A stretch of 64,000 nucleotides of DNA from Diadophis punctatus similis. Taxonomy: Eukaryota > Chordata > Lepidosauria > Squamata > Dipsadidae. A model generated the notes under the pieces. It did no database searches. It saw nothing but the letters and a program-made list of their open reading frames with translations, and was not told the origin of the DNA. Where the stretch lies: positions 168,384,430 through 168,448,429 of the forward strand of contig JALIGW010000002.1 of the NCBI GenBank assembly GCA_023053685.1. The letters run 5' to 3'. Below are positions 2,291-27,024 of this stretch, one piece after another. Position numbers and translations under genes: made by a program. Numbering within the stretch: the stretch's first letter is position 1; each line of letters begins with the position of its first letter.

Positions 2291-2410
2291 CAGTTCTATT
2301 TTACCTAGGCACATCTCTGGCCCCCAAGACAAAGACTAAGAGTTAATAAGACTTAATAGCTAGCCATCAACACTGCAATCTACAACTAAAAAACTACACA
2401 CAACAGGCAT

Positions 2411-3360: not shown

Positions 3361-3446
3361 CTGCCAACAATGTAAGATAAAATTTCAGTATTATTGATTT
3401 AAGGCATGAGGAATGTCCCAGCTATGCAAACTTCTTTGTTTAAACA

Positions 3447-5222: not shown

Positions 5223-5590
5223 TGGAAAACTGTGACAAAAGAAAACAAAGATAGTACCAATAGTAATAAGTGCCTTGGGGCGCAATCCCCAAACTACTGG
5301 ATCACCAGAAGAACTCTCTTGACATTGATAAAATCACAGTCAGTCAATTGCAAAAGGCAGCTTTACTTGGAACAGCTTATATTAATAAATTTGGATTCAT
5401 TATATTAATAAGAGGAAGGTAGGTATACTGGATATGTTTGCCATCTGGAATTATTTGTAAAAATAATAAAGGCAAGATACAAATAAATAGATAAAGTATT
5501 CTGCGATGATACCTTTAGCACCATCAAACAACACCTGCCTATTCCAGGTCTTTGGGAAGGACTCAATAGGTGGATTGAAATGCCAAATCC
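5223..5590 (+). mobile_element. LINE 3' fragment, possibly R4/Dong clade
   Basis: Translation in shifting frames gives VPIVISALG and, after a gap, IDKITVSQLQKAALLGTAY, which resembles the C-terminus of R4/Dong-type reverse-transcriptase proteins (LQK-x-ALLGTAHI). A related piece is at 12361-13070. It is broken by frameshifts and has no function. Confidence 0.45.
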
Positions 5591-5636
5591 AGCCCAAACA
5601 CCTGGCTGACTGTGTGACCAACCATCATGATCAAGA

Positions 5637-6192
5637 ATTTATTTATTTATTTATTTATTTAGTGTTCTTATATGCCGCCATACTCCCTGAGGACTCAGGG
5701 CGGCGTACAACATTTGAAGAACAACTAAACAATATAAAATTTAAAAACAGTATTAAAAAAATTTATAAAAACATATAAAACCCATAAATACATGGGGGAG
5801 ACTTAGGATGTAAAATTGTCTCAGTACCCCGCCTGCAGGAAAAGCCATGTCTTGATGGCTTTCCGGAAGGCCAGCAAGGTGGGGACAATTCGTATCTCTG
5901 GGGGGAGTTGGTTCCAGAGAGCGGGGGCCCCCACAGAGAAGGCCCTCCCCCTAGGCCCCGCCAGCCGGCATTGTTTGGTTGACAGGACCTGGAGGAGACC
6001 CACTCTGTGGGACCTGACCAGTCGAAGGGAAGCATGAGGTAGGATGCAGTCCTGGAGGTAACCTGGACCTAAGCCATGTAGGGCTTTAAAGATGATAATC
6101 AACACCTTGAATTGCACCCGGAGACCAATGGGCAAACAGTGCAGCTGGCGGAGTATGGGTGTTACGTGGGTGTATCTTGAGACACCCACCAC
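5637..6192 (-). mobile_element. L2/CR1-type LINE 3' end with partial ORF2
   Basis: On the minus strand an open frame (5821-6192, 123 codons) encodes the C-terminal end of a non-LTR reverse-transcriptase protein: THVTPILRQLH, FKALHG, LWNQLPPEIR, FRKAIK-WLF. It ends in a 3' UTR with GGCGGCGTA and an (AAAT)n tail at about 5637-5662. It is 5'-truncated. The same protein is more complete at 57290-58273. Confidence 0.88.
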
Positions 6193-6270
6193 ATATTATT
6201 GCACATATGGTTTCTAAGACTGGCCTGTACCTTAAGGTATGCATAAAAGAGGAACGTTTGTGCTCCTTAC

Positions 6271-6428
6271 CATTCTCTCCAGCTTCCAACATGCCTTGCA
6301 GATACCGGAAAGATCCTGACTGCTTAGGCTCTGAAACGGGCCTTTCATGATCTTGTAGCATTTTGTACACATCCGAGTCTGTGTCGATTCCGTTTTTGTT
6401 CCTTGGGAGAGACCTTAGAGGATCAGCA
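6271..6428 (-). CDS. PDLIM4: PDLIM4 exon 5: conserved internal ALP-family block
   Basis: The exon is 158 bp, acceptor AAATAG and donor GTAAGG. It begins with the base that completes a Ser codon (phase 2 junction with exon 4) and ends in phase 1. It encodes a segment with D-x-D/S-VYKML followed by EPKQSGSFRYLQGMLEAGE. The second block is nearly invariant in PDLIM4 and also present, less exactly, in PDLIM1 and PDLIM3, where this internal region contributes to alpha-actinin rod and actin association. The first 25 residues are variable. No stop or frameshift is seen, so the exon is under coding constraint. An L2/CR1-type LINE fragment ends about 80 bp from its 3' splice side in the neighbouring intron. 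Confidence 0.94.
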
Positions 6429-8024
6429 CTATTTGAATAGAAAATGAAGGTCAACCAATTGATGCCAAATGAAGAGGTACCAACCTAAAGTCCATTAAAG
6501 AAAAGGAGTCTTTCATGAGGAGTTTCTTTCACAATGTGTTCTCGAACTGTTTCATCAAATCATGAGCTTGGTAACTGCAACTTTTGGCAAACAAGTCCCA
6601 TGTTTACTAATGAGGATTCAACCATTTGTTTCTGCTTTCTTGTTCCTGGAGTGATGGTTGGTCATGTACATGTGCAATCTATTATATGCAAAGAATTGCC
6701 AATGACAGAGCCCTTGAGTTCATTCTACTGGCTACTGAACCATATATTTAAGACTAACCAGTAACTGCAAGACAGCTGCTGCAATTCATTGGATTACTGT
6801 GTTACACACGGATCATATTTTTTTAATGCATTAAATTAAATTACTGAAGGAATTGGAAGTCCTCCCACCGCTGAATAATGTTTGGCACTGGAGGTTTTTT
6901 TTTTTTGTTATTGCCAAGCAGTGTCTCAGGAATACTACTTAAAGAAAAAAAAACTTCACTCCTTATAAATTTTATTCCTTGTGAATTGGGTTGCATTTCA
7001 TCTATAATACATTTGGAAAAAAATGTTTGATATAATGTTTGATATAAATGGCAAACATATATGGCTAAGAAGTAAAAATTAATGGTCACTCATACGATCA
7101 CACTGGGTCCTTTGGGGAGATCTATTTTGCCACTCATAAATTTTGGAAGGAGGGTGAAATAGAAAAAGCTCATTTCTGTTCAGCCTTATTTAAATGCTGC
7201 ATTCTGAAACTTTGCATGCTACCACAAACCCCTGGAGAGATGCAACAGTGTCCTGGACTACATAAAGTCCCTGAAACACGTGGACTGGGGTTGGAAATGA
7301 CTGTCAAGTTTGGTTACTGTTGAAACTGCTGGATCATTTTGCCACCATTTTAGCCCAGGTGACTGAAATTCCTCTGAATTTTTTTCATCTGTTTTTCTAT
7401 TGATTTCACCTTTATCATCCCAAATGGATTTCCTATTTCTTGTTTATTTGCATCTGGAATCAGTAGAAAGTATGGGTTCAAATTTGATAGATTTTAAATA
7501 TCTAAAATGTTTTTTTAAACAAGCTACCTTTCATTTTAGTATTATTCTATTCATGATATTAAAGGATACAGCCATGGTTTGTTATTTTTCAAATGATCCG
7601 TGTTTATAAAATCCAGCCAACATTATTTAAATGCAGTCTACAGTAATGTCCTTCAGAGGATAGAAATTATGCTTTCAGAAGAATGTATATTTAACACCAA
7701 AATATGTTTGTACTTGGAAAATGCAGTATCTTAACTTAATATATAGCCGGCTCCAAACTTCTATTCTTTTGAATTTTTCTTATTCATACAATATACCACG
7801 CAGGTCATTTGATGTGTTGTGTGGTTAATTCTAGCTAATGGCCCAGGGATGCTACTGCAGTATAAACCCAGATTTCTGAATTTAATGTAGTAGCCCAGAC
7901 CAGTTTAAATCTCAGGCCTAAAAATTCATGTGTTACAAAAATGTATCCTCATCCTATTTTTAACAATTTTCTCACACCTATTTAAAACTATTACTTTGTA
8001 GCATTGCATATATAATTTAAAGAG
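6429..8024. other. Intron 4, left part, no recognised feature
   Basis: AT-rich non-coding sequence between exon 5 and a SINE. I saw no repeat family I can name and no coding signal. Confidence 0.55.
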
Positions 8025-8228
8025 ACAGTGTGGTGTGGTAGTTAAGGCACCAGGCTAGAACCCTAGAGACCGAGTTCTTAGGCACAAAGCCAGTGGAGTG
8101 ACCTTGAGCAAGTCATTTTTTTCTTAGCCCTAGAAGGAAGGTAACGGCACACCACTTCTGAAAAAAACTTCCCAAGCAAACTGGAGAAACTTGCCCAGGT
8201 AGTTTCTGAGAATCGGCACAATTAAATA
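8025..8228 (+). mobile_element. SINE of Sauria type (tRNA-derived, BovB-like tail)
   Basis: It has a tRNA-like head (GTGGTAGTTAAGGCACCAGGCTAGAA.., with an A-box-like and a degenerate B-box-like GAGTTCTTA), then the conserved body 'gtgaccttgagcaagtca' and '..caccacttctgaaa'. The end 'tttctgagaatcggcac' resembles the BovB-related tail. I base the name on memory of squamate SINEs. Confidence 0.65.
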
Positions 8229-8299
8229 GAGGGGTGGGGGGGGATAATATAACATTACACATGTTTTTTTAAGATGGCTTTACAAATGGGAAAGTCTAT

Positions 8300-8438
8300 G
8301 GATATTTTCAATCATCCAGGTCACGACTGTCCCAAAGCAACTGGACTTTCTTGGTTTTTCCTTGAAAATGTCTCACTTCTCATTCAAGAAGCTTTTTCCA
8401 ATTCTCAGCTGCCTTTTGAAAAGCACCTTTGGGACAAA
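8300..8438. repeat. Fourth copy of the TTTGGGACA dispersed repeat
   Basis: It starts with 'caatcatccaggtca', has GTCCCAAAG near the start and CTTTGGGACA at the end as inverted ends, and includes 'tctcattcaagaagctt' between. It is related to 1617-2290 and diverged. Confidence 0.6.
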
Positions 8439-9233
8439 TGGGAATGTTCTAACATGAATTTCATTTTTCTTTTGCCAATTTATCTTGAATTTTTTATTAG
8501 GCTGCTATTTTAACAATTGTGTGCTAATAGATGAAGCTGTAACGCAAACACTCTCTTACCCATGATCTGTTGAACAAGTCATAATTTATTGTCATGTGAT
8601 AAGCTGTAAATCAGCCTAAAATCTGTAACAAAGTGGGTTTGAGATAACCCCGAAACAATTAATGTTATGAATCAATGTGATATGTGTCTTTTAATTAGGC
8701 TACCCTGCCTGGGGTATAACATTCTCAGCCATCACTAGGCAGCAAAAAGGTGGAGAAAATTCCTCTGTTTTGCTGCTAACTACTGGCCATCAGGATTTCT
8801 GGAGCCCAAATAGTGTAGTTTGACTTTTAGTAAAATAGTTGAAGAGTTGGCAGATTCATTTGGGAAAATAGCGCTAAAATGATTTTTCTCAAGTGTCTAA
8901 ATCCATTTTAGGTGGTGGCAGGATGCTCTTCGAACAGACGCACATAGTTGTTTCAGTGTGTGTGAAAGAGTGAAGATTTTTACTTGGAAAAAATGGTGCA
9001 AACCCCCCTCCCCCTGACACTTACCTTTTCATACTGGGTGTAACCATGTCTGAACGAAAACATCCAGATGACCATTAAATGGATGTGAAAAGTGAGAGCT
9101 TTCTGTATCTCCCTACTGTCCTCTAGCAATTGCCTGCATTTTTGCAGCACCGATGCAGTAATCCTATTTCTTTAATTCAATTCAGGCATTTCTAAAAGCA
9201 ATTCAATTGACATGTACACTTTTTACTCCATAC
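8439..9233. other. Intron 4, right part, no recognised feature
   Basis: Non-coding AT-rich sequence leading to the donor of exon 4. Nothing is recognised. Confidence 0.55.
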
Positions 9234-9412
9234 CTTTGGGGACTTGTGATATGGAGACCACTCATCTGTGAGGGTAAACTAGAATCTGGACTGTTGTTTG
9301 TATACAGACGTGAAGGATTATTGTATTGCAAATTTAAGGTCTGCTTGTTGTCTGTTGGACTTCCTCCAGGTGAAAAAGCCATGGGTCTCCTGTTTGGAAC
9401 AGGTCCGTTATC
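9234..9412 (-). CDS. PDLIM4: PDLIM4 exon 4: variable linker between PDZ and LIM parts
   Basis: This 179-bp exon has acceptor TTGTTTAG and donor GTATGG, starts in phase 0 after exon 3 and ends in phase 2. It encodes about 60 residues rich in Pro, Ser and Asn, low in hydrophobic residues, with no domain. The recognisable end is a Leu-Pro-Ser-Gln-Met-Ser-Gly-Leu-His stretch, corresponding to LPAQMSTLH in mammalian PDLIM4. The first two thirds align only loosely with mammals, where this linker is also Pro/Ser rich. It runs straight into the correct phase for exon 5. A 33.7-kb intron separates it from exon 3. Confidence 0.9.
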
Positions 9413-10015
9413 CTAAACAAAAGAAGAAATCACGATAAGTTGCCCTTGTCCGTAATAAACTACCACTTTCAGTAAATGGAGACCCATTAGGTGGTCTACC
9501 AACTGCAAACAATATTTATTTAATAGTAATGGACCTGTAAATTGGGGAATAAAGAATCAGCAAAGAGGATCTGTTGGAAGAGGAAGAAAATATCTGCATT
9601 TCACCTGTTGTACAATGTCTTTGTTTTAATTTGTGTTGTATCTAAGTTAATTGAAATACATATTCAAGTTAGATCTAGCTTTGAGGAAATGTTTTGATCC
9701 TAAACAAATAAGAGATAAATGCATGGATGAGCAGATGTAAACATGCCAGTTTAATGTCTGTAAAAACAATAGTGTTATTGTTTTTTAAGCTCTGTAATCT
9801 ATTAATGTGAAGTCAAGGGGAACTTGACTAGGAAACAGGCCTTCTACATTGTAGTCTAACTCTAACTTTATGGAAATACAATGAATTCACAATCAGGAAG
9901 ACTTTTAAAACTATCTCTTTAAACTGCTGTTTGAATCTTAGGATGATTGCCAGTATCTATTTATTATTATATAGTAAAATGCATCAATTATTTTATTATT
10001 TTAACAGTTATTTTA
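9413..10015. other. Start of 33.7-kb intron 3, no recognised feature
   Basis: AT-rich intron next to the exon 4 acceptor. The stretch includes the polypyrimidine/branch region but no repeat that I can name. Confidence 0.55.
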
Positions 10016-10240
10016 TAGCAATAGCACTTAGACTTCTATACCGCTTCATAGTGCTTTACAGCCCTCTCTAAGCAGTGTACCGAGTTCAGCATATTGCCCC
10101 CAACAATCTGGGTCCTCATTTTACCGACCTCAGAAAGATGGAAGGCTGAGTCAACCTTGAGCTGGTGGGAATTGAACAGCTAACTGCTGAACTAGCAGTA
10201 GCCTGCAGTGCTGCATTTAACCACTGCGCCACCTCGGCTC
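10016..10240 (-). mobile_element. tRNA-derived SINE (GAGCCGAGGTGGCGCAG family)
   Basis: Read on the minus strand it starts GAGCCGAGGTGGCGCAGTGG, contains the B-box-like GTTCAATTCCC, the body 'ggttgactcagccttcc' and ends in 'gctattgcta'. The tRNA-like head is intact enough to recognise, so it is a full-length copy. This is a common snake SINE. Confidence 0.85.
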
Positions 10241-11015
10241 AATTTTGTTTGCTTTTTAAATGCTCTTGTACCTAATCCAAAGTCTGTGAGATTGGGATTT
10301 TAAAAAACAAAAACTGCTGTACAGTGAAATAAAAAAGTAACTATCAAGATAAAAGAATACAACAAAAAATAGGCCAAGGAAAGAATGCACAGTGCTACAG
10401 TCATTTGGAGTTTTATTTTTAGAACAAACATGTACGAGTTTGGTTTTACAAAATAGAATGTCTAGTTATTTGTTTAAATACGCGGCTGGCATTAAAAGGT
10501 GTTGCCTACCCAGAGTTCCCTAAAGTTACCCTCCTCTTCTTCCCCTTCTCCTTTGCTATCTGTTCTCATAACCATGCTAGCCATGGACGCAAAAGGAATA
10601 ATGCGAAAAAGCAGAAGCCATTATCCACCTAGCCCATTTACCCTGGAGAGTGCTAGAAACTGGACTGGGGGAAATTCCCAGTGGAAATAACTGCAGTGAA
10701 ATTAATCCTACTTGGAAGACAGAAATAGAGAAATGAGCAAGAAAAACAGCAATGAACTGGAGAGGATGCTTTCTACTGGAAGAAGTAGACTAAGAACTTT
10801 ATAAAGCAGTTTATATAAGTCAGCTCTTGGAAATAAACTTAATGTATTATTCTTTAACTAAAGGTCCCAGGCAACTTAAAGCACAAACAACAACAGCAAG
10901 TAGATGATACTGTAAATAAGATGCCATCCATGAAGTTTGGTGTGGTGGTTAAGGTAATGGTTAAGGCTGCCTTGAGTTATTTGTAAAAATAATAAAGTTG
11001 GGATTAAAAATCTAG
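10241..11015. other. Intron 3 segment, no recognised gene
   Basis: AT-rich, with a short tail-like 'ttatttgtaaaaataataaag' at about 10979-10999 that also occurs at 5455-5475, suggesting the 3' end of an unnamed retroelement. Confidence 0.5.
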
Positions 11016-11174
<159 letters not shown>

Positions 11175-12360
11175 CATCTCTCACTTCATAAATCTGTTAA
11201 TATTTATTTGCTAAGTCCATGTTATAGCTTCGCTCACATTCCTCAACTTACTGTATGTGAGTTTTCCATGCCTCTTTAATACAATGTGAAAAAAAGGGTA
11301 GGGATGAATCATTGATATCTCTCTCTTAATCCTAAAAATAGCCCTTATTTTTATACTTAAACTGTAACTAATTTTTGTTTTAAATTACCTGAAATTCACA
11401 TAAGACTTCTATAAACCTTCCCTACAAAACAAAACGAATTCTAAACCTGCACTGAATTATTCTTCCAGCAGTAATAATTAGGTCATGAGCACTTTGAAAA
11501 TTATTCAGAAAAAGTGCTCTGGATATTGCACAAGGATAATACTTTCTGTTATTTCTGATATTTTATTAAGACAATACCTTTTTTTTAATCTTCTTGAGAA
11601 AAAGGGTGGTACTGCTTTAAAAATTAGAACGAAAGCGCTAACGATCTAATTTAAGCAATTTTGAAGAGCAGCAGAAAGTAGTTACACTCAAGTGGAGGCA
11701 AAAGCCCAGTCACACAATAATTACAATCTCCATGCTTAGAGACTGCAATTTTATGATATGCATAAGCAATATAAAGATTTTTCTAAAAAATTTCTGCAAA
11801 TACTTTACGTTTTACAGTTTTTCAAATATTTACCTATAAATGAATGCTACTTTTAAAACTAGCTGGTTTTTCTTTTCCATAAGAAGGATTTCTCTAGAAC
11901 ATGGGTTTGTGCTAGAACTGTTTAGAATTGCAAGCCCTGATTAACTATGGATTCCTTACTTCCCGTTTATTTCTTCCTGACTTCTGGGAATGGATGCTGA
12001 TTATGACAGTAAATGGCATCAAGCCAGCGTGCCTTTCCAATCCCTCAGCTGGTGCCCGACTATTCCTCTCTGCACTGCCCAACTCTTGTACAGGAAAAGG
12101 AACTAGGAGGGGAACAAACAGAGTCTACAAAATCAGGAACGCAGCCAGATTTTTCTGGTAACTCCTTGAACCTAGAAAATGCTTCTGTTGACCTGTCACT
12201 CAGGCACTTCTACTGAAATAGATTGGACCATGGTTTGTTCTTTCCCATTAAAGAGAAAGCAGAGATGGGACAGTCAAATACGAAATTAGCTCTGTTTCTG
12301 GAAGCATGGTCTGCTTCTTATGGAGGAGGAAAGAGGCACTACAATTCTCTTCAGATGGCT
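11175..12360. other. Intron 3 segment, no recognised feature
   Basis: Moderately AT-rich non-coding sequence. No coding signal or named repeat is seen. Confidence 0.5.
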
Positions 12361-13070
12361 GGAATAATAATAATAATAAGAAGAAGAAGAACAAAGGCCT
12401 ACAAAGCCAGAATCGAGAAAACAAAAATAGCAAATTCCACTCTGCAAAGAAGCTGAAGAAATAGTGGACCACCTAGTTAGTGGCTGCCAGAAGATCACAC
12501 AGATGGACTACAAACAACAGCACGACCAAGTAGCAACAAGGGTGCATTGAAATATCTGCAACAAATAACGTTTGCCTTCAAGCAAGAATTGATGAGATCA
12601 CAGAATAGAGAAACTCATAGAAAGTGAAGAAGCTAAAGTGCTCTGGGATTCTACAATTCAAACAGACAAGCACCTGACACAAAACACTTCACATTTAACA
12701 ATTCTTGAGAACAAAAAAAAAAGTCTGCATAGTAGATATGTCAGTGCCTGGAGACAGCAGAAGAGAAGAGAAAGAACTGTAGAAAAACCACAAAATATAA
12801 AGATCCACAAATAGAAATAAAATGACTATGGCAAAAGAAAGAAAAAGATACTACCAATTATAATAAGCTTCTGGGATGTAATCCCAAAATACTAAGAGCA
12901 TCACTTCAACATCATTGGCATCGACAAAATTACCACCAGGCAATTGCAAAAGGCAACTTTGGAATACCACATACCCTGTGATGGGACCTTTAGCAGCATC
13001 AAATAAAAGCATCTGCCTATTTCAGGTCCTTGGCAAGGACTTGATAGGTGGATAAAAAACTTTTTTTCAG
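12361..13070 (+). mobile_element. Degenerate LINE fragment, possibly R4/Dong clade
   Basis: After a short (AAT)n/(AAG)n run (12365-12391) the translation shows broken pieces such as LPIIISFWDVIPKY and NIIGIDKITTRQLQKATL, which parallel the piece at 5223-5590. Many stops and frameshifts are present, so it is an old relic. Confidence 0.45.
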
Positions 13071-13082
13071 TGTCATTATAAC

Positions 13083-13426
13083 CAGGGGTGGGTTCTAACT
13101 TACCTCGCTGCCAGTTCGCTTCCTCCCGCACTGCATGGCTGTGTCTTGTAAGTGTGTGCGTGCTTTGCGCCGCGCATGTGCAGTGCCAACCCCCCCCCAA
13201 AAAAAGCCAAAAACAAGATGGTGACCGCATGCACAGTGCCGGAAACTCGGCTTCTGCGCATACTCAGAAGAAAAATAAAATAAAATAAAAAATTCAAAAA
13301 AAAAAGAGATGGCAGCGCCCACGGACCGGCACCAACCGAACCGTTTCTGTGACATCATTGTGACATCACCAGTGGGTTGCTACCGGTTCAGGCGAACCAG
13401 TCCGAACCAGGAGGAACCCACCTCTG
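13083..13426. mobile_element. hAT-type element, ends CAGGGGTGGGTTC
   Basis: It is 344 bp with ends CAGGGGTGGG / CCCACCTCTG and an exact 8-bp duplication ATTATAAC (13075-13082 and 13427-13434). The interior is CpG-rich and non-coding. It inserted at the end of the LINE relic on its left. Confidence 0.93.
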
Positions 13427-13434
13427 ATTATAAC

Positions 13435-14384
13435 TTTGAATGATTGCTAAACCAATGGTTCTAAGTAAAGGACTCTACCACTAACAAAAATGATCATCAC
13501 ATATATTTGACTTCCCCCATCAATATGTTAAGGTTGCAGGGGGAGAAGAAGAATTAGAATAAGGACACATGCTCAGCCTCCTCTCCATAGGATTTTTCTT
13601 CCTCTCATTGTACAGAAGTCAGGGTGAGACTGTAGTGGGCATTTCTCATTTTCTCTGTACCTGTTTTTTCTTTTCTTCCTGAAGTCTAAACAGAGCTAAG
13701 GTGAGACGTGAAAGATATGAAAGTAAATAAGCAAGCTCATGACTTCTTTTAAACAACTGCTGTCAGCAATCATAGAGAGGGAGAGACTATTTGTCTTTCG
13801 GCCTTAGAGCTATCGTTTTCCAGATTTTTAGTTTTTGCTACTTCAATTAGAAATAGCACATTTTCAAATGTTAAACAGGCTTTTTAATTTTCCTGGCTTT
13901 ATTGCCCTGTTACAGTGAAGGGGAACAGGAATGGTAAACTGGAAATATGTTGCTTTGGCTAAATGCAAAGTTTTCCTATCCTAAATTAGTGCAAGAGAAA
14001 ATAAATACTTCAAAATGTTCAAAAACAAGTAAATGGCAATATGTATAAGAAAATATGAGAGAATATTTGATACAGCTCATTTTGGTTTTACTGAATATTA
14101 TAAATTTGGTATTCAGATTTATTTTCTCTGAAGAGAAACTTTTTGATTTGTTACCATACTTCCTGCTGAGTCATGTCAACTAGCACACAGGGACTTTTAT
14201 AACTATAATAGTTTTGCCAGATTCTTAGTTTCTGAAAAGTGATTTAACGTTTCTGAAGTGCACAACCCAATTCAGCATCGCTTATTTCAGCTTTTTCTCC
14301 TACTGACACAAATATGGCGTTTTCGGTGAGTCCTGATAAAGCAAGGGGCAGGATTCGTGTAAATTTAGCTGCTATGTAATTTAA

Positions 14385-14385
<1 letters not shown>
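13435..14385. other. Intron 3 segment, no recognised feature
   Basis: AT-rich non-coding sequence with no repeat that I can name. Confidence 0.5.
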
Positions 14386-14607
<222 letters not shown>

Positions 14608-15408
14608 TTTAATTAGTTCATGAGAATACTGCAGCTATAACTTTAAACAAAATGATGGTGCTAACCACTCTTTTAAAAGTAGAGAGATTTTAATGGATTT
14701 TCTAAGAGAAGGAAATCTATGTTGACAGGATTCACAAAAAAATGGATCTAATTCCAAATTCTGATCGGAGCAGAAGAAAATCTAAAAGGCCAAAAAAGTT
14801 GAAAAACACCACTTTATCATTTTTTCCCTACTGTTTTGGAAATTCTATTTTTGTCATTGTTGACATTATTGCATGTCAGAAAAGTCAGAGTTTTCTTGGT
14901 TGTATCAAAATAATTCTTGCAATTTAAACAAACCGTTATATCAAATATAGCATTACTTCCCCAACTTTCTACAAATCAACAAATGTTGGATTGAGAATAG
15001 TTCTTTTCCAAAGCAGTCACAATATGCAGATAGCATGTCAGAGAACATGGTGTTCCTATGATTCATCTTTCCATGAGGAAGAGCCATTCAAGCACCAGTG
15101 ATGAAGCAGGATTATGTCCCACTTTCCCTGATTCCATGCCTAGAGATTCAGACCCCAGTCTACCTACCTATTTACCTGTCTCTCAGGTATGCAGTTTCCT
15201 TCATCTGGAAGGTCACAGAGCACAGACACAGAGGAGTGCTCAACTGCATGAGGAGGCATCATGGTGAGGAAGAGAAGGAGGAGGAAAAGGAGGCTGCTTT
15301 TCAACCACAGATTCTTGTAATCAGAGCTCATTGACTCCCTTCTTCCTGAGACAGACAGGCTGGGAGAGCCCTGAATTTAAGGCACTCCCTGACAGCCTCA
15401 CAGTAAGG
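14608..15408. other. Intron 3 segment, no recognised feature
   Basis: Non-coding sequence up to the target site of the next hAT element. A purine-rich stretch is present at about 15262-15295. Confidence 0.5.
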
Positions 15409-16057
15409 CAGTATTTCTCAAATAGTGGGGCGCACCCCCTGGGAGTGATGCCAGGGGGTGCGTGTGACCTCGGGGAACATGCGTGGTACCTCTCGATCGA
15501 TTCCCCTGGACGGGGAGAGTTTTCCCAGTTGCATGCTGCTCCGAGCCCGGAAGAGAAGGCGGCCAGGCGGGGTGGGGCAGCTGCGTAGGTTCTTGTTGTT
15601 CTCGGCAGGCGCCGCGGTAGCCATGAATGGCGTGGTGAACCTGCTGCTGGACAAGGAGGAGCATCCTCTGCAGCTGGGTGAAAGCTTGGAACGGCACCCT
15701 AAAGCCTCCTTCCACACCATTCGCTGTGAGTGCACATCAGAGGCGGCGCTTATGGGGCAGGCTGGCAACTCCAAAACATCGGCTTGATTAAGCTGGCCCG
15801 GCCTCGTGTCAAAAGAGGGCCCTAACCACGGTAGCCTAACTGAAAACAGGCTCCACTGAGTTCAGTGTGACTTACTCCCAGGTAAGTGGGTAGAGCAGCC
15901 TTCCCCAGACAATAGTTTGTTTGCAGCTTATAATAAGTAAAATAATAAATATTAACACTAAAATTCCATTGGGGCCCAGATCGGAGAGTTGGGGGGCGCA
16001 AAATGTTTACTTCTTCCTAGGGGGGGGGGCGTAACAGAAAATAATTGAGAAGCACTG
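15409..16057 (+). mobile_element. hAT-type element carrying EAF1 first-exon cargo
   Basis: It is 649 bp. The ends are CAGTATTTCTCAA and, inverted, CAGTGCTTCTCAA (11 of 13 matching). It is flanked by CAGTAAGG (15401-15408) and CAATAAGG (16058-16065), 7 of 8 bases. About 75-100 bp at each end (GGGGCGC-rich) looks like an ordinary hAT MITE. The middle, about 15490-15960, is different: GC- and CpG-rich, with the EAF1-like exon described separately. No transposase frame is present, so it would have to move with an enzyme supplied elsewhere. Confidence 0.85.
15623..15725 (+). pseudogene. EAF1: Captured EAF1-like first coding exon with splice donor
   Basis: From an ATG in a good context (GCCATGA) there are 34 in-frame codons and one extra base, followed directly by GTGAGT, a consensus donor. 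The peptide starts Met-Asn-Gly and contains [15 protein letters not shown] and ASFHTIR. From memory, human EAF1 begins MNG with LLDREEH, LGESFE and ASFHTIRY, so start, spacing and exon end after the Arg before Tyr all fit; EAF2 fits less well. EAF1 is a nuclear partner of the elongation factor ELL. Upstream GC-rich sequence (about 15500-15622) would be its 5' UTR/promoter and downstream sequence its intron 1. Only the N-terminus is here, so it cannot make EAF1. No stop or frameshift is seen in the 34 codons. Confidence 0.8.
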
Positions 16058-16065
16058 CAATAAGG

Positions 16066-17104
16066 GAACGACTTCTGTGACGTCTTCTATAGTATGTAGC
16101 TAGTTTCCAACTTTAAGCCATGATAGTCTCCTTGGAAAACCTGGACTCTTTCTGCCCCACTGTCAGCAAGAAATTTCTGGTTAACTTGTGCCTGGAGTGC
16201 AGCTTGCTTTTATAAAATTTATATTATGACTGCTTCCTCCCCAGTTAAAAAAATCCTGCCCAAGCCTTGTGAATTGGGACACACAAGGATATTTTTTTTC
16301 TAGAAACGTTATTCTGTTCTGCAGATGGAAAAAACATTTTGGAGCAACTCCAAACAGAACAAATTGGAAGTGCATGGGAAGGAACATACAAAACCAGGAC
16401 CAAATGGAAAAGGTTAACATTAACTCTGTCCTAAGACATTTATTGTCTGAATAATTATCTTTAAGAAAACTTTCACTCATATCATCTTGGCTCAGTTCTA
16501 CTTCAAAGGGACTGCTCGTCTAATTCACTGTTACCTTCATTTAGACTGATAAGCTCAAGAGATAATTTCTTTTCTCTCTGTCCAGCGCTTTTAAAAACAA
16601 AGAAACTCCATCACATAATAAATAAATTTAGTGACCCCACAGTTATTAAATTTCCATCAACCTGATTTACTCTTAGCCTCTATAAGGCTTTTAAAGCTTA
16701 TATGTGCACCACAGCCTTTCCTTAAGATAGTTATTTCACTTGCAGCAGTACTTTTCTTAGTAGCTTTACACTAATGGTAAACTTTCCCTGAGAGTTTCCC
16801 TCTTCAGATGTGTTGGAAAATTTGGAAGTTGTTGCTTGCCACACATGACAACAGACCAATATGACCATGGATTAATACTTTATCATTTGTCATAGAAAGT
16901 TTTTGTGTGTGTTGAGGATAGGATCTTAAAGGGGGCTTAGAAATATTTTGAATGAATGAAATCATTCATTTATCCATTCTTGCTGTGAGTGGAGGTTATA
17001 AAAAATATGATTATGAGGTCCTCTCATTATCAATTACGATTAAGCTAAGGTCTTCTAAAGACAATGTTAAGAGGAATTATCTCCTGCCATAAAAACAATT
17101 ATAA
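16066..17104. other. Intron 3 segment, no recognised feature
   Basis: AT-rich non-coding sequence. Nothing is recognised. Confidence 0.5.
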
Positions 17105-17352
17105 GGAGCCGAGGTGGCACAGCGATTAGAGTGGGGTACCGCAAGCCACTTTAGCTGATTGTGATCCGCAGGTCCGCGGTTCAAATCTCACCGGCTCAAG
17201 GTTGACTCAGCCTTCCATCCTCCCGAGGTCGGTAAAATGAGGACCCAGATTGTTGGGGGCAATATAAATATACATTGCTTACTGGTGTAAACCGCTTAGA
17301 GAGTGCTTGCACTGTGAGGCGGTATATAAATGTCACTAATAAATAAATAAAA
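17105..17352 (+). mobile_element. tRNA-derived SINE, plus strand
   Basis: It starts GAGCCGAGGTGGCACAG, has the B-box-like GGTTCAAATC, the body 'ggttgactcagccttcc' and a tail (AATA)n after 'gtatataaatgtcac'. This subtype has the longer 'cttgcactgtgaggcgg' ending. Confidence 0.88.
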
Positions 17353-17525
17353 TTATATAAATGATAACAAAATACAGTTCTTCCTATTGTTGATGGTCAG
17401 GTATCAGGACACCTGTAAATATTAACTGCTCCTGTGGAATTGTCTCTGTGCCTATGAAATGGACATGGGTTTTGCGGGAGGGGTGTGTGACCAGATCTCT
17501 TTCAGAGTCTTCCAGCCCTGGCTGT

Positions 17526-17760
17526 CTTTATTTATTAGTGACATTTATATACCGCCTCACAGTGCAAGCACTCTCTAAGCGGTTTACACCAGTAAGAAAT
17601 ATATTGCCCCCAACAATCTGGGTCCTCATTTTACCTACCTCGGAAGGATGGAAGGCTGAGTCAACCTTGAGCCGGTGAGATTTGAACCACTGACCTGCGG
17701 ATCACTGTCAGCTAAAGTGGCCTGCAATACCCTACTCTAACCGCTGCGCCACCTCGGCTC
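17526..17760 (-). mobile_element. tRNA-derived SINE, minus strand
   Basis: Same subtype as 17105-17352 in opposite orientation, ending at CACCTCGGCTC (17750-17760). The spacer between the two copies is about 173 bp. Confidence 0.88.
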
Positions 17761-18725
17761 TTTATTCTGTACAGTTTCTCTGTGCCTCATGGAATCAAGA
17801 GACATTCCTAAAAAGAAGACAGGGTAAGCATGCACCGGCCAGCATTTTTGCTTTGAAGCAGTTTTAGACAATGGAAACAACCCCCCCCCCCAAAAGCATA
17901 AAATTAACCGATCCAATATTTAGCACTGAGCGGCAGATGTAGAAGAGCAGTGGGGGAAACATGGATATATTAAAAGATTTCTGGGAACAGTCTAACACTA
18001 TGAGAAGAGGAAGCTTTATGACCTAAAGATATGAGAAGAGGAAGCAGGGGAAAGATGAGTAATTTTGCTTGGTGCAGGAGGAAGTAGCTGGATTACTGCT
18101 AGGAAAGAGCAACGGGTGGGGCTCTGGCAGTTCTTGAGAATGATGCTGAAAAAGGAAGACCAAGTCTGGGGTGAGAAAAATAACATCCTATGGGTGATCC
18201 TGAGTGAGGGAGAGGGAAAAAGAAAGGAAAAACACAACAGTAAGTTCTAAGGATTCTTAAATAAGGTACCTTTTAGCCTTGGAAGCTTGTTCTGTGTCTC
18301 CTTGTTTTCTGTTGGCCCAAGAAACTGGTTTGATTTTGTTATTCTGGAGCTCGGACTCAACTGTGCCTTGCATTTAGGAATCCGAATTTGTCTTTTAGGT
18401 TCTTTCTATGATTGGTTCACTTACCACAGTGGCTAATTTTTGATACTACTCATATTTCCCCAATATTCTAAATACGTCCAAAGCTCTAAAAAATATCTTG
18501 TATTAAAAGAACTAAGCGTGCTGCTGTAAACTGCAGAGTTGTGTATCATTAATTGGTTTTTTAAATGCAGTATTTTTGAGCTGCCCTTCTACAAAGTTAT
18601 GCAGACTTCAATTCCCAGAATTTCCCAGATAGCACAAATGTTGCTGGGAATCCTGGGAGTTGAAATGCTTGTATCTAAAGCATGACAAAGTTTTTTTTTA
18701 TGACCTCACACAGATGTAGTAACTA
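17761..18725. other. Intron 3 segment with one hAT MITE relic
   Basis: Mostly unrecognised. A relic of the palindromic 'acttcaattcccag..ctgggagttgaa' MITE family lies at about 18598-18668. A C10 run occurs near 17880. Confidence 0.5.
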
Positions 18726-19333
18726 CAGGTAAGTCTTTGACTTACAACAGTTCATTTAGTGACCGTTCAAAGTTGCAACGGCACTGAAAAAAGTGGCTTA
18801 TGACCATTTTTCACACGTATGACCGTTGCAGCGTCCACATGGTCACGTGATCAAAATTCGGATGCTTGGCAACTGGTTCCTATTTATGATGGTTGCAGAG
18901 TTCCGGGGTCATGTAATCATCTTTTTCAATTTTCTGACAAGGAAAGTCAAGATTCACTTAACACCCGGATTACTAACTTAACAACTGCAAGAGCTGAAGT
19001 GGTGCAGTGGTTAAATGCAGCCATTGCAGGCTGACTGCTAGTTCAACAGTTCAGCTGTTCAAATCTCACTAGGCTCAAGGTTGACTCAGCCTTCCATCCT
19101 TCCGAGGTCGGTAAAATGAGGACCCAGATTGTTGGGGGCAATATGCTGAACTCTGTAAACCGCTTAGAGAGTGCTGTAAAGCACTATGAAGCGGTATATA
19201 AGAAAAGTGCTATTGCTATTGCAATGATTCACTTAACAACCATGGCAAGAAAAATGGGGCAAAACTCACTTAACGAATGTCTCAGAAACATAAATTTTGG
19301 GCTCAATTGTGGTCGTAAGTCAAGGACTACCTG
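18726..19333. mobile_element. Tigger-like DNA transposon with nested SINE
   Basis: Ends CAGGTAAGTCTTTGACTTAC and GTAAGTCAAGGACTACCTG, flanked by TA on both sides (18724-18725, 19334-19335). The copy is split by a SINE at 18991-19222. Confidence 0.9.
18991..19222 (+). mobile_element. tRNA-derived SINE nested in Tigger-like element
   Basis: The head GAGCTGAAGTGGTGCAGTGG is mutated from GAGCCGAGGTGGCGCAG; the body and the 'gctattgctattgc' end are intact. It inserted after the DNA transposon. Confidence 0.88.
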
Positions 19334-19335
19334 TA

Positions 19336-20102
19336 TTATGTGATTTTTCTATGAATTAAATAAAATATCACTAGCAGTTATGTTTCATTGCTAGGTATTT
19401 GGAGGCTAGTCTGCATACCTCACTGTTGTTTTATCATTGTTAGAAGAATTGTCTCTAGAACTACAGTGCAAAGGAAGCACAAAGAGACTGAAAATGTTTA
19501 TGGGACCATAAAATTGCTCCACGGTATTAAAATGTATGTGAACAGATGTGCTGGTTTCCCAAAGTTAACTGTGCCAGAAGAATTACACTAAAATGGAAAC
19601 ACGGTTTTAAAATTGCTGCATGATTTTTATGTCCTCCTGGAATGAGTAATTATTTGCTAATAGTTTTCTTCTTAGATGGATGTGATAAATTATGGCTGCC
19701 AGAGCAGCGCTGACTTCAACATTTGTGGTCCTGCAGAAAAGATGTTCCAATAGAGAAAGGAGCACATCTGACACGGAAATGGAACATCGTGGCAATGGAC
19801 CTGGCTTCATTTTTTTTGAGGGATTTCCAAATGAAGCTCTTCATCTCACCTGATCAGGCCTACTGATTTCACAGGAAGGATTTTTAAAAGAATGAAGGAC
19901 TAACAAAGCACACTACCTCAGACTAACTGGCATGAGATTTACTCCCTATACCCAATATTCAAAATTGTCTCTGAAAACAGATTGTGTAATCAAGCTGTGA
20001 AGCTCTTTAGAATCAATTTCCAAAAGGTGTTTCTGAGCAAGTGGGCACTCAAATGTAACATTGGTCTACAACACCTTAAAGCAGCCATGGCCCTTGAAAG
20101 AC
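19336..20102. other. Intron 3 segment, no recognised feature
   Basis: Non-coding, moderate AT content. No named repeat. Confidence 0.5.
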
Positions 20103-20483
20103 TCTAGAAAGAGTGCAGAGAAGAGCAACAAAGATGATTAGGGGACTGGAAGCTAAAACATATAAAGAACGGTTGCTGGAATTAGATATGTCTAGTCTGA
20201 TGAAAAGAAGGACCAGGGGAGACATGATAGCAGTGTTCCAATGTCTCAGGGGTTGCCACAAAGAAGAGGGAGTCAAACTATTCTCCAAAGCACCTGAGGG
20301 TAGAACAAGAAGCAATGGGTGGAAACTAATCAAGGAGAGAAGCAACTTAGAACTAAGGAGAAATTTCCTGACAGTTAGAACAATTAATCAGTGGAACAGC
20401 CTGCCTCCAGAAGTTGTGAATGCTCCAACACTGGAAGTTTTTATGAAGAGATTGGATAACCATTTGTCTGAAGTGGTATAGGG
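20103..20483 (+). mobile_element. CR1-type LINE 3' end, left part
   Basis: The frame 20113-20481 encodes a typical CR1 ORF2 C-terminus: RRATKMIRGLE, RRTRGDMIAVFQ, RNFLTVR, WNSLPPEVV, FMKRLD. The 3' UTR continues after a hAT insertion, at 20960-21028. It is strongly 5'-truncated, as CR1 copies usually are. Confidence 0.93.
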
Positions 20484-20951
20484 CAGTGATGGCGAACCTA
20501 GGGCACGTGTGCCGGAAGTGGCACGCAGAGCCAGCTCTCCGGGCATGCCAGCTGTCGCCCATTGCTCTTCCGGGTTCCGGCACACACATGCATGCTGGCC
20601 AGCGGGTCTTCGCGCATGCAGGAGCACCGGAAACTGGAAGAGCAGCTCCCTGGCATAAATGCGTGTGCTGGGAAGCTAAGCTTTTGGTTTCCGGTGCACG
20701 CATGCGCGCCGGCCAGCTGGTCTTCATGCACGCATGCACACCAGAAACCAGAAGACAATTGACCAGCGCTCATGTGCATGCCAGAAACCGGAAGCCCAGC
20801 TTCCCAGCACGCACATGCACGCCAGAGAGCTGCTCTTCCGGTTTCCGGTGCTCCCGCATGTGCGCACCAGGGAGCTGCTCTTCCGGTTTCTGGTGCTCCG
20901 CGTACGTGCTCCCGTTTCGGCACTCGGTGCCGAAAAGATTAGCCAATACTG
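20484..20951. mobile_element. hAT-type element (ends CAGTGATGGCGAACCT) inside the CR1
   Basis: It is 468 bp, flanked by GTATAGGG/GTATAATG (6 of 8). The interior consists of quasi-palindromic GC-rich repeats around 'ggagctgctcttccggtttc' and its complement. Related elements are at 37605-37814, 41184-41633 and 52771-53759. Confidence 0.85.
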
Positions 20952-20959
20952 GTATAATG

Positions 20960-21028
20960 TTTCCTGCCTAAGCAGGGGGTTGGACTAGAAGACCTCTAAA
21001 GTCCCTTCCAACTCTGTTATTCTATTCT
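20960..21028 (+). mobile_element. CR1 3' UTR and tail, right part
   Basis: The text 'cctgcctaagcagggggttggactagaagacct' and the tail 'ttattctattcta' are the standard CR1 3' terminus. It is contiguous with 20103-20483 once the hAT is removed. Confidence 0.92.
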
Positions 21029-24000
21029 AAAACAGTCTGATCTCAGGAAATGGCTCTCCCATACCCCAAAACACCTTTTAGGAATCAGATTCAAATCCCT
21101 AGTGTACATATTGTAGTAGTAGTACTACTACTACTACTAGTAGCAGTAGTAGTAGTTGTACAGTAGTTGTATTATTGCCAATAGGAAAATCATTATATCA
21201 AAAGCCGAGTTAAGTGTTATCCCTGTAGAGATGTTTCACTTGTATGATGAATTCAAAAGATATTGGATTTCCCTCTAAGACACCCTTTCATTAAGATATC
21301 AATTCTGTAAGCTTTATGTCTTCAGCAGCATCTTGCTTGGTGAGTTTCCAAAAGTGGGGGATGAGATCACACAATTGCTTTCCCTCATTCCTGCTTGAGC
21401 TGAAAAAGGATTATTGCTATACAAATGTAAATCCTTTTCTCCTAGAATTAGTAACATAATCTGTCATATTACAAAAAATGTCAGAGGACAAAAAAGAATG
21501 ATAAAACATGAATAAATGGGATGTTTTAAAAAGATTTAACAATAGGAATAAATGAGAAAAGCATACTATGAGCTTTTTCCTGCAAATCTGGGTACCGTAC
21601 ATTTGCTTGTGAATAGGCTCCACTAAAGCTAGTGAAACTTTTGTGCAACGTTCCATAGGTTTGGGATGAGCAAATTAAATATTTAATTTTGCAGAAATAA
21701 TTTGTAAATGGACAAGAAGAAAACATTTGGAAAGTAATTATGTGCAAATGGGTCTTATATAAAGAGACAGCAAAGCATCTGTGCCAAGAAAAGAAATGAT
21801 TTACAATCCAAAACTTCAAGTTATTCTAACATTTTGTTTCCATCCAGTTTCCCCAGGCAGACAATCTGTTAAATTTCTACTAATTTCAGCATCAATTTCT
21901 CAGCGATATATGCCAGTTTTAGTAGTTACGTTGATATTTACTAATTCAGAGATTAGTTCACACAAATCAGTCAATCAATCAATCAATCAATTTATTTATA
22001 TTTCAAATTTCATATTTCTGAATTGCCCATCTCCCTCAAAGAGGAGCTCCTATATGACCTATATATGAATGTTTTATTTTTAGGAGATAAAACAATCTCT
22101 TTGGGAGACTTAACACTTTATAAGAATAAATATTTTGTATCTATGTTCTATCCTTTATCTACATACCTGAGAAATGTTTCAATAGGTATTATTCTTCATT
22201 GTTGTGTATATTCACTAGACAAGGTTTCAATTTGGAACTTTGTGAACAGGATGACTGATTGAAGGTAAGTGGGAAAATGTGGTGATATTCCTCCAGAGTT
22301 CCTATTTAACTCTGAAAATCTGCCTTGGGGATCATATAGTATAAACAAGGTCTACCAGGGAAAGTAAAAATGGAAAACCAACAATAGTCCTTTGTATATA
22401 GCAAAAAGAGCCTTTTCAGTCATAGATTAGCAATTCTGCATATCACCACATGCATCTCTAAAAGAACAGCAGCCACAAAATTATTTCAGAACCGCTGTCA
22501 AGTTCAGACATTGATCTTTCCTGATATTTTTTTTTCCATTTTAGAATAATTGAGGCATTTTGGAATGCTTAGAATATGAAGCCTAAAGTGTATTAAAAAT
22601 AACTTTGAACGTATGATCAGTGGAACATGAAATAATTAAGTCATCTTATTTCACCTCAAGAATATTCTTCACATGAAAACACTTTATAGTGACACTATTT
22701 CATTTCCTTAAAACTTAAACAAAAAAACCCAAATATGCTGATAAAATGTATTCAAATTTGTTTCATAAGCCTTAGTTTTTTTAAAGATTTCCTGTCAATA
22801 AGACACAGCAAATGGTTCATATTCAACTCTACAATTCATGCTGCTATTCTCCATTAATCTGCCACACAGAGATACTGTACCATGTGTTACTCTATGCGCG
22901 AATTTGTAGTACACATAATGTTCTAACCTCAATATACAGTTTCAATCAAAGAAAAAAACTTGATAGCAACAAAGAGATTCAAGAGTGTTAAAAGACTAAA
23001 AATATAACCTGGCTCCTACCAATTCAGAAACATACATTAAAAGGAGGGTCTTTTAATGAAGCATTTAGAGCTTTACAATTGACTTAGATTAAACTAGCTG
23101 AATGATGCAAACATATTTTAAACGATTCCTACAATTTTTAATCAACATGAAAGCTAATCTTTAAGAAAAGCATTTGTACCAAGTAAACCAATTTTCATGT
23201 TAACATCTGTGCAAGGGAGAAAATATGAAATCTAAAAAGAATGTAAAAAGAAATAAACAACCCTCTTTTAATGTTTTGCAAATAAAGTGTTTATTGTGTC
23301 TTATAGTTTAATTATAGAAAATCAACATAAATATAAAACACACAGTACTAAAGTTAAAATTTTTTTGACATACAGAACATTAAAATTCAAAGACAACTGC
23401 CTAAAAGGAAATCTGTGGGTTTAAAGAAAGTCAAAAAATTTGCATATAAATCTTTTCTTGAAAATCAGAAATACTTTCTAATTTTCTTTTTATAATCATA
23501 TCTTCTAGTAGATTTTGAGGGTATCAGCAATATATCTGTTTGTTTTCTCCACTCACGGGGATTTATACATAGGATACTTTTTTAAAAAACTGCACTTTAT
23601 TACCTTGCCAGAGGTTTATCTGTATCAGTGAAGATATAACTTCAGTGAGCAAAATACTCTTTTGAAATTAATGCTATGTTATTGTCCATTGCTTTTTAGG
23701 TCTCCCGTTTCCTTTTCTACATTTTGGAATACACATGTGGGGCAATCAACTTTTTCTGGACTCTCATAGTTCATGATATCAATATTTCGTTTCTAAAGAA
23801 TCCCACAAACCATTTCAGTTAAATGAAAAAGAACTAGGTAATATAGCATTTGTATGTGTATGTATTTTATATAAAATGTACTGAATAAATATATACTCAA
23901 AATGTATTAAAGCTATAGCTATACTCCTGATGTCTAAGCTATTCCATTATTGGATCTGTAGATTTTATATTGATCTTCAGAACTTTGTTCTGATTTATAC

Positions 24001-25349
24001 ATGAATATCTCTTGTTGCAAAGAAACTAGCTTTAAACTGAAAAGGGAATATATTCCTTACTATTATTTCCAGGTTAAAAGCTAGTTTTCCCTCTTGTTGG
24101 GTTCTTAGTTCCCATGTGATTTTTTTGGTTTCTTTTACTTAAGGACCTTCTTTTACCTTCCTTTTGTTTTCTGCTTTATTTAACTGTGACCTTTTACTTG
24201 GTATGTATGCTGGTTTGCCAAAAATGTAGCCCTGACAATTCATTCTGAATTAACTGTGTATATAGATGTTCTTTCACAGCCTACCCAATGACTAGCTTAG
24301 TTCATGACAACTGTCCTGTGCCTTGTAAAATACCTTAAGAAAATCCAAATACTTAAAATAAATCAAGTCGGAAAGAAATAGCCAGCAGTTTTTAAGATGT
24401 TTGCTCAAAAGTATACTAGGGATGATTATGCTTTAAACATTTTGAGTGGCTGCATCATCCATTAACCATTTCAGAAAGCTTTATCTGTATGGAAATATTT
24501 AGTAAATATGGTGCAAAAACTAAATGGTTTTTAAGTATGGAAGAATATTTAACTTAAATTATGTTTGTTCTTATATTTATTCTGTAAAATTGTGACTAAA
24601 GAAAGGATAAATGATAATATCCCTATCTTTCAGACTTAACCAACTGGATGGAAATGAGTTTCCATAAACTTGAATTTATGATACCCATTTATTGACTACT
24701 GAATGAGCCTAGCATCCCTTTCCTAGACTAGCACACTTCTCTTTTCCTCACTTTTTTTCTCTTGTAATATTGGCTGGAAGAAATAGTTAGGAAGGTTTTA
24801 CCTAACATTTTTGGTTCAAATGTTTAGTCATGTTATCCAAATTAATGAACAGTAATTAATGTTCAACTGTAATTTGGGTTATGAAATCATAGTTTAACAC
24901 TAATGATTTCTTATTTTAGGGGGTACTCTTTACATTAAACAAAGACATAAATAAAATGGCTACCAGAGAGTGCCGGGATGTGGTTGGTGATATCACCAAG
25001 AGAATAGATGCAATTTTTGGCCTGCTGTTTTTATTTGGGATAATTCCTTCAATATATAGGCCAAGCCTTGCAGAAATTGAACACATGTGTTTTATTCCTC
25101 CTCCATCCAGCTGCCAAAACTTCTTCCCATGGGAAAGAGAAACATATCACTGAAAATTGACAATACAATCCCAATTTCAGTAGTACAATATTGAGTGGTC
25201 AGGGACTACAACATGGGACTGGGTAACATTTGTACCCAGGACAGTATATAGACAGCAAGTTGCCAAATTTTGTATTACATTCATGGCCACTTTCTGTTCA
25301 GAGCTCTTTGTTTCCTTCTTCAGGCCTACTGAGAGTAATTGTAAGAGTA
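21029..25349. other. 4.3-kb AT-rich intron stretch, few repeats
   Basis: Contains a mirror-like (GTA)n/(CTA)n patch at about 21113-21163 and a short (AATC)n at about 21968-21990. Otherwise it is strikingly free of recognisable transposons and has no coding signal. It is the longest low-repeat stretch of intron 3. Confidence 0.5.
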
Positions 25350-25735
25350 CAAACAGTCCTTGACTTACAACCATTCAACCATTTAAAGTTACAATGGCAC
25401 TGAAAAAAGCTGCTTATGATTGTTTTTCACACTTACAACCGTTGCAGCCTTCCCACGGTCATATGATCAAAATTTTGACGCTTGGCAATGGGCATGTACT
25501 TATGATGGTTGCAGTGTCCCAGGGTCATGGGATCACCTTTTGCAACCTTCTGACAAGCCGAGTCAATGGGGGAGCAAGATTCTCTTAACAACTATGTTAC
25601 TAAGTTAACAACTGCTGTGATTCACTTAACAACTCTGGAAAGAAAGGTTTAAAATGGCGCATACCTCACTTAACAACTGTCTTGCTTAGCAATGAAAATG
25701 TTGATCTCAATTGTGGCTGTAAGTCTAGGCAAGTA
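25350..25735. mobile_element. Tigger-like DNA transposon, diverged
   Basis: Starts CAAACAGTCCTTGACTTAC and ends GTAAGTCTAGGCAAG; the body ('ggcactgaaaaaagctgctt', 'ttcacttaacaac') matches the other copies. The ends are more worn than in other copies. Confidence 0.82.
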
Positions 25736-26870
25736 TAACTGCTGCTTATTCCCCCAAAGCAGTTCCCTTTCTCTAGCCAGGGGCATAGAATGGGAAGGTA
25801 GATGGGAGATGGCTAGGCTTGAAGATGTGATCTGTGGGACACAGATTATTACCAATTTTCATTCCATTTTACCAACAATAGATTTTATAGAAATTGATTG
25901 GTTCGTGATAACATTTTCCACAGTGTAATTTATAAAACTTTTCACAGTAATTTTAACCAAACTTTAAAATATGATGACCTGTAAAAACTCTCATGTAGGT
26001 ATGCTGGCTTATGGTTGAAAATTCCAGCCAGAGGCCAAACTGGCAGGATGCCATAGAAGCAGTTCAATGCATCGGGAGAGCCCTGCGTTTTGAAATGTTG
26101 TCTCGTTCTTGATATTTGTCCAATTGCAGAATTATTTTTGAAACAACTAAGAAACTAAATTGCTAAAATGTTCCATGTACTCCCTTGAAATGTTTTAGTA
26201 GAATCGTCTTCAAACTGCAGATATAGCGCCTTGAATGGAAGATCATACAAATCAGTCTCCATTTTGCAATAAATGTATATAAACAATGTGAGTTAAATTC
26301 AGAATGATGTACTTGAATGGGGATATTGGGATTTCCTTGTTTAGACTGCTGTGAAATTTATGGCGTACACTTTTTTTCAGTGACCTGTGAAATCTACCAT
26401 GCAAGCATATGTGTTTTTCATCAGATAACTTATCATAAAAGAAAAGGTGCTTCTGCAAAATTGCATGTTTGCAAGATTTAGCAGTTCATAGTTTAAATGG
26501 TAGTTTTAGCATGAAACTGTCGGCCATGTGATAAATTTCTCTACTGACATTTGATGTTTAATAAAACTAATTTAGATCTTTTTTTCAAAGCTATTGAATT
26601 AAGAGTTGGTTTATTTACTTATATTATCATCAGCTTTTTTCATACTTAAGTCACAATTTCTATTGGAAAAAACAAACTATTTATTTTGATAATTAATGTC
26701 AATATGCAGAAGACATGGGAACAGTTGAGCACATTTCAAATTCATCTATGTTAACTTGTGACAAAGTTGTTAAGTTGTAAATTGTTATCATGCATTTGGT
26801 TCAGAATGCAGATGCAGTGGGCTGAACTGAGGTTGAGTTCAACTCCAGCACAGGCACATACAACACTACA
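25736..26870. other. Intron 3 segment, no recognised feature
   Basis: AT-rich non-coding sequence. Nothing is recognised. Confidence 0.5.
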
Positions 26871-27009: not shown

Positions 27010-27024
27010 CTATTGCCTGCATAT

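Follow-up and report, generated by a model that had tools for sequence, protein, structure and literature searches.

The window analyzed here, a stretch of 64,000 nucleotides from the snake Diadophis punctatus similis, holds at positions 15409-16057 a sequence that reads as the start of EAF1 set between ends like those of hAT transposons. How did the beginning of this gene come to lie there, within what is probably an intron of another gene, PDLIM4? The answer, in which we have high confidence, is that a Buster-type hAT element captured the start of EAF1 and was amplified to ~1,200 copies, the window copy being one insertion in PDLIM4.

The element is 649 bases long, with the terminal sequences CAGTATTTCTCAAA and CAGTGCTTCTCAAT; its hAT-derived portion is limited to the two ends, of ~72 and ~75 bases. 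The features that delimit it are as follows.

15401 to 15408, no strand: left target-site duplication, CAGTAAGG, identical to the right copy at seven of eight positions
15409 to 15480, plus strand: 5' hAT end, sharing at most chance words with the native EAF1 locus
15983 to 16057, plus strand: 3' hAT end, likewise sharing at most chance words with that locus
16058 to 16065, no strand: right target-site duplication, CAATAAGG

These ends and the duplication lie exactly where a preliminary description of the window had placed them, and the duplications around other copies confirm the assignment. A weak subterminal hairpin is located at approximately 15431-15462 (32 bases at 81%, self-BLAST E 0.014). 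There are 1,781 CAGT..ACTG spans of 200-1500 bp in the window, and the element is one of two that pass cut-offs of at least 7/8 for the target-site duplication and at least 11/14 for the matching of the ends. Taken alone, the ends and duplication of the window copy are moderate evidence for a transposon; its status as a hAT element is settled because other genomic copies, described below, show the same structure. Self-BLAST of 15301-16200 revealed no further copies of the element inside the window, and an Rfam scan of the window gave no matches. Another short hAT-like span, 210 bp in length (CAGTGATGG...CCAACACTG, duplication 8/8), is positioned at 37605-37814, likewise between the probable exons 3 and 4 of PDLIM4.

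Between the two ends lies the cargo, which was compared with native EAF1 on contig C386 of the same genome.

15481 to 15747, plus strand: EAF1-derived block a, comprising the 5' region, exon 1 and the start of intron 1; 88.8% to C386:472378-472642
15623 to 15724, plus strand: coding part of EAF1 exon 1, an ATG and open frame of 34 codons, from the open reading frame and protein alignments
15725 to 15731, plus strand: T ending the exon, followed by the GTGAGT splice donor (GT at 15726), from the sequence
15748 to 15857, plus strand: 110-base stretch lacking a counterpart in the native locus of the same genome, from the comparison with native EAF1
15858 to 15908, plus strand: EAF1 intron-1 block b; 98% to C386:472658-472708
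15907 to 15965, plus strand: EAF1 intron-1 block c; 97% to C386:472885-472943
15964 to 15982, plus strand: EAF1 intron-1 block d; 19/19 to C386:473043-473061

The similarity to EAF1 thus runs in pieces from 15481 to 15982, and ~500 of the 649 bases are either EAF1-derived or lie between EAF1 pieces. Element positions 73-339 correspond to native EAF1 from 139 bases upstream of the ATG, through exon 1 and into intron 1, and positions 450-500, 499-557 and 556-574 are successive parts of intron 1. Approximately 180 native intron bases are absent from the element between blocks b and c, and ~100 between blocks c and d. The preliminary description had taken the cargo to be the 5' region, exon 1 and the start of intron 1 of EAF1, and the alignment to the native gene bears out that source, although the borders given for it were approximate and the reach into intron 1 is longer than described.

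The reading frame at 15623-15724 begins with Met-Asn-Gly, ends with HTIR, and is followed by T|GTGAGT; the start codon, the 34 open codons and the donor are all positioned as had been proposed. The EAF1 identity of these codons is secure. In a search of the PDB the 34-residue piece had EAF1 (7okx) as its sole match at E<=10, with 24 of 34 residues identical in a full-length alignment (E 5.5e-10), and it is identical to Crotalus EAF1 at 31 of 34 positions, as compared with ten identities for the next-best ungapped 34-mer in the six frames of the window. Pfam recognized no family in either the 34- or the 42-residue piece. The cargo is also CpG-rich, as had been noted, with an observed/expected ratio of 0.61 for 15480-15970; the 1-kb flanks have ratios of 0.06 and 0.19, and the window as a whole 0.35.

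The later exons of native EAF1 were located by a protein search, which gave six matches, four on C386 and two less alike on contig C1 that are probably EAF2. When 15 kb of the C386 locus was compared with window positions 13409-18057, the EAF1 similarity proved to be confined to the element and to end inside it. Two extra matches outside the element (17104-17331 and 17543-17760, an inverted pair) are 77-80% to a single stretch ~1.7 kb upstream of native exon 1, which is probably an interspersed repeat. The similarity to EAF1 is genuine, as it would be in a segmental duplication or a processed EAF1 pseudogene lying between chance hAT-like ends. The cargo retains upstream and intron sequence, against a processed pseudogene, and the similarity stops at the hAT ends while blocks a, b and c recur with nearly the same borders in other copies, against a segmental duplication. 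Both origins are refuted by these three observations, and we regard them as exceedingly improbable.

The 110-base stretch (element positions 340-449) is perhaps older EAF1 intron 1 sequence that was later lost from the native gene. The native intron site without these ~110 bases falls at approximately 7643-7657 of locus L065 (C386), and the aligned element copies have them.

A search of the genome with the whole element gave 2,416 first-look candidates, of which the best 40 were scored. All of the latter cover query positions 1-649 or 2-649; the window copy matches at 100% and the other 39 at 89-91%. A 27-base exon motif is found at 1,182 places genome-wide, the native gene also fitting it with one mismatch. 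A 28-base motif covering the junction of EAF1 intron sequence with the hAT end is absent from the native locus and occurs at 1,238 places. The same genome-wide counts with the motifs reversed, as controls, were zero. These counts allow up to two mismatches, so that more diverged copies escape them and some places may be fragments. The further copies that the preliminary description had considered possible thus exist, roughly 1,200 in this genome.

Two samples of copies were inspected. The best-scored sample consists of the 40 copies chosen by similarity, the window copy included; the positional sample consists of 40 copies taken in order along contig C1 and picked by the exact exon motif, which biases it toward conserved exons. 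A duplication of at least 7/8 flanks 37 of the 40 best-scored copies and is perfect in 28 of them. Copies L004 and L018 are without one at that threshold, and L019 apparently has one after a shift of a single base. In the positional sample, both ends are reached in 34 of 40 copies and a duplication of at least 7/8 is present in 32 of 40, the ends there being free to shift by up to four bases, which favors matches; that of L077, with its odd ends, may be due to chance. Comparison of the 80 flanks of the best-scored copies, 400 bases on each side, yielded 12 matching pairs. Three of these join flanks of the same locus, and L018 and L038 match each other twice, as expected of other repeats. Since so few flanks match, no shared duplication accounts for the 40 copies, which are independent insertions. 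In the comparison of 40 copies with native EAF1, blocks a, b and c have near-identical borders in the 20 copies among the matches listed.

The ordinary Pack-TIR of animals, which arises when a gap within an old hAT element is filled and is present as a single copy, also consists of a small internal capture in joined pieces and is the common kind in the survey of PMC8277862. For the locus at hand it has a very slight probability: with ~1,200 copies, separate target-site duplications and one founder change, it is ruled out by copy number.

The copies also define the class of the element. Its terminal inverted repeats are short and imperfect, with a CAGT start in 39/40 and a CTG end in 40/40 of the best-scored copies. 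Within the duplications of that sample, averaged over both flanks, position 4 is T in 35 of 37 and position 5 is A in 36.5 of 37. The resulting target consensus, nnYTARnn, fits the nnnTAnnn of Buster hAT elements (PMC3517528). The window copy, 15409-16057, belongs to the non-autonomous hAT elements and has target sites of Buster type. Two types of end, CAGTGTTTC and CAGTCCTTC, are both common among copies L001-L040, which suggests at least two subfamilies.

With respect to the captured exon, the ATG and open frame are intact in 36/40 best-scored copies, the exact TGTGAGT is present in 36/40, and the GT in 39/40. In the positional sample the exact donor is in place in 27/40 copies, and 35/40 are free of stops from the ATG onward, eight of them shifted or cut near the end. 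Exon and donor are thereby retained in most of the copies inspected. L080 and L106 have a common deletion, from approximately element position 314 to 508, that removes the donor, and their flanks differ. They represent a donor-less subfamily that also spread, and exon and donor are therefore unnecessary for spread. Off CpG sites, there are 24 nonsynonymous and 12 synonymous coding changes in the best-scored copies, where 2.3:1 is expected, and 20 and 16 in the positional copies, a count to which no expectation is attached. The coding changes look neutral, with no clear sign of the constraint once acting on the exon.

One coding difference is common to the family. Leucine replaces the proline at residue 7 in 40/40 best-scored and 39/40 positional copies, a founder change that, being present in nearly all copies read, marks the element. 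The cargo diverges from the majority sequence by 1.8% at non-CpG and 19% at CpG columns, as calculated from 27 of the 40 positional copies, the remaining 13 being truncated, gapped or insert-bearing and left out. The rapid decay of the CpG columns suggests that most copies may be methylated and silent. With a neutral rate near 2e-9 per site and year, the burst of amplification would date to the order of ten million years ago. The founder differs from native EAF1 at 10 of 335 non-CpG sites (3.0%), and capture may have come shortly before the burst.

Was it the EAF1 of this lineage that was captured? Overall, native EAF1 scores best against two snakes, Ahaetulla and Crotalus, with 496 and 494 summed bits versus 451-468 for three lizards and the ostrich, and is accordingly taken to be a snake gene; exon 1 by itself is closer to the gecko Euleptes (97% versus 94%). 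At residues 4 and 28 the native gene has leucine and serine, and the element majority has valine and alanine, the same as Crotalus and Ahaetulla. This pattern, together with the ~110 element bases absent from the native intron, would fit a horizontal transfer of the element from another snake after capture of that snake's EAF1. The valine and alanine, however, being common to two other snakes, may be ancestral, the native gene having changed later, and the gap between founder and native gene is only 3.0% at non-CpG sites. We consider horizontal transfer improbable and favor capture by a hAT element from the EAF1 of the host lineage.

The host gene was identified by tblastn with a PDLIM4 probe. 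Matches on the minus strand lie at 59246-59094, 43212-43126, 9448-9239, 6430-6269, 3334-3239 and 1533-1321. The two weaker of these flank the element.

43126 to 43212, minus strand: probable exon 3 of PDLIM4, bounding the host intron upstream; tblastn E 5e-4, weak
9239 to 9448, minus strand: probable exon 4 of PDLIM4, bounding the host intron downstream; tblastn E 7e-7

The match at 9448-9239 is 35% identical and has a stop near its start, which is probably the exon edge. PDLIM4 exon 1 was not found in the window, and the intron is numbered from the 43212 and 9448 matches with exon 1 placed beyond the window. Pfam LIM and DUF4749 domains were found in a separate scan. Pfam gave nothing in the third minus-strand frame of 3-14999 or in the three of 14950-29948, and a PDB search with one minus-strand frame of 2-14998 gave nothing. 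The proposal that the element lies antisense within intron 3 of PDLIM4 is thus upheld as probable. Because of its antisense orientation the window copy is not expected to trap PDLIM4 exons.

Searches of protein databases, spanning lengths of about 23-73, 143-455 and 440-1400 residues, provided 22 proteins (19/19, 2/2 and the best one of three candidates). The EAF1 N-terminal pattern is present in 20 of 23 proteins, with Leu 7 confined to one database entry, P0023, and to the window's own reading; among the 22 database proteins it is seen in P0023 only. P0023 is a GLUT5-like gene model from Erythrolamprus reginae (Dipsadidae), in which the first 88 residues are element-like and GLUT sequence follows. 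Its 88-residue start is 76-77% identical to element copies among the eight matches listed, versus 67% over 84 residues for the native locus. The start codon falls at the join of hAT and EAF1 sequence, and the native match starts at residue 2. Element sequence in the model ends with ..CPAE, 17 bases beyond the EAF1 splice point and not at the captured donor. In 5/40 copies of the window genome a GT has arisen at this exit position via CpG decay. By this evidence the element would be present in E. reginae too, and the predicted gene represents possible exon trapping at the level of annotation. Annotated chimeras with the element look rare.

A second candidate, the Laticauda protein P0021, was rejected as an element copy. 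It has proline at residue 7 and reads as native EAF1, passing from exon 1 straight into intron 1. In P0021, P0022 (Cairina), P0002, P0005-P0007 and P0012, EAF1 exon 1 continues as ..HTIRCE.., like intron read-through, and public proteins of this kind are probably mis-predicted or read-through models.

In terms of known systems, the element encloses host DNA within hAT ends and so belongs with the Pack-hAT or Pack-TIR elements of animals (PMC8277862). An EAF1 fragment lies between both terminal inverted repeats with a target-site duplication, and the parental copy is on C386. The preliminary description held hAT elements with host exons to be rarely reported in vertebrates. Those with host sequence are less rare in animals than this implies, 208 of 370 Pack-TIRs in 100 animal genomes being of hAT type (PMC8277862). 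Most of them are single-copy, with four multicopy cases (1.4%), and a frog Pack-hAT carrying the CAPSL 5' UTR occurs on three chromosomes (PMC8277862); the word "snake" is absent from the main text of that paper. The EAF1 element differs from those cases in having ~1,200 copies and in carrying a coding exon with its donor. Its nearest analogue is HelibatN3, a Helitron of bats that carries the promoter, start codon, six codons and donor of NUBPL and for which exon trapping was shown in cells (PMC4778049); in Myotis, 15 promoters captured by Helitrons are present in 4,690 copies (PMC4778049). In both HelibatN3 and the EAF1 element an upstream region, ATG, short N-terminus and donor are carried and amplified. 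The EAF1 element, in contrast, is a hAT with an 8-bp duplication, has 34 codons instead of six, and resides in a snake. Mar, a Buster-family Drosophila MITE, is similarly short, non-autonomous, amplified and inserted at nnnTAnnn sites, yet no host-gene cargo is mentioned for it in the available portion of PMC3517528. The EAF1 family can thus be described as a Pack-hAT with a HelibatN3-like layout, at a copy number unreported for TIR elements in the available portion of PMC8277862. What is unusual is this copy number in combination with exon and donor, not hAT capture itself. Searches on EAF1 or ELL-associated factor with transposon, and on Pack-TIR with hAT, gave no such family in titles and the starts of abstracts, with subscription papers, Repbase and Dfam outside their scope.

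These observations suggest the following scheme. A non-autonomous Buster-type hAT in a snake acquired ~680 bp of EAF1 sequence, reaching from 139 bp before the ATG across exon 1 and its donor into the first part of intron 1, now present in shortened form. Capture may have proceeded by template switching into the hAT, and the native stretches missing from the element would be internal deletions in it and not insertions in the native gene. A hAT transposase acting in trans could have raised the family to ~1,200 copies. With upstream region, ATG and donor all carried, the layout is that of a putative exon-trapping transposon. The captured upstream region may act as a promoter, and a copy inside a gene, provided that it lay in the sense orientation, could trap downstream exons.

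Apart from these last steps, the scheme is compatible with a family of real Pack-hAT elements in which the captured exon is passenger DNA, giving rise to neither transcription nor chimeras, and to this we assign an even chance. The nonsynonymous to synonymous counts off CpG sites, the fast CpG decay, the donor-less subfamily and the single predicted protein with Leu 7 all agree with it; retention of the ATG and donor in most copies, and a public gene model that begins with the element, speak against it. Given amplification of the captured exon, it is a tentative suggestion that, among the ~1,200 portable first exons made from the start of this housekeeping gene, some snake copies serve as real alternative first exons, through which unrelated genes gain an EAF1-derived N-terminus or a new promoter; the GLUT5-like gene of E. 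reginae would be one such case.

Capture of a host gene by a hAT element can yield a successful transposon family, in this case of ~1,200 copies with an exon and a splice donor. The resemblance of these copies to the start of EAF1 is a pitfall for annotation. They also constitute a natural experiment, in which one upstream-exon-donor unit has been inserted independently many times, countably and in a manner datable by divergence, and they could offer a ready-made first exon to other genes.
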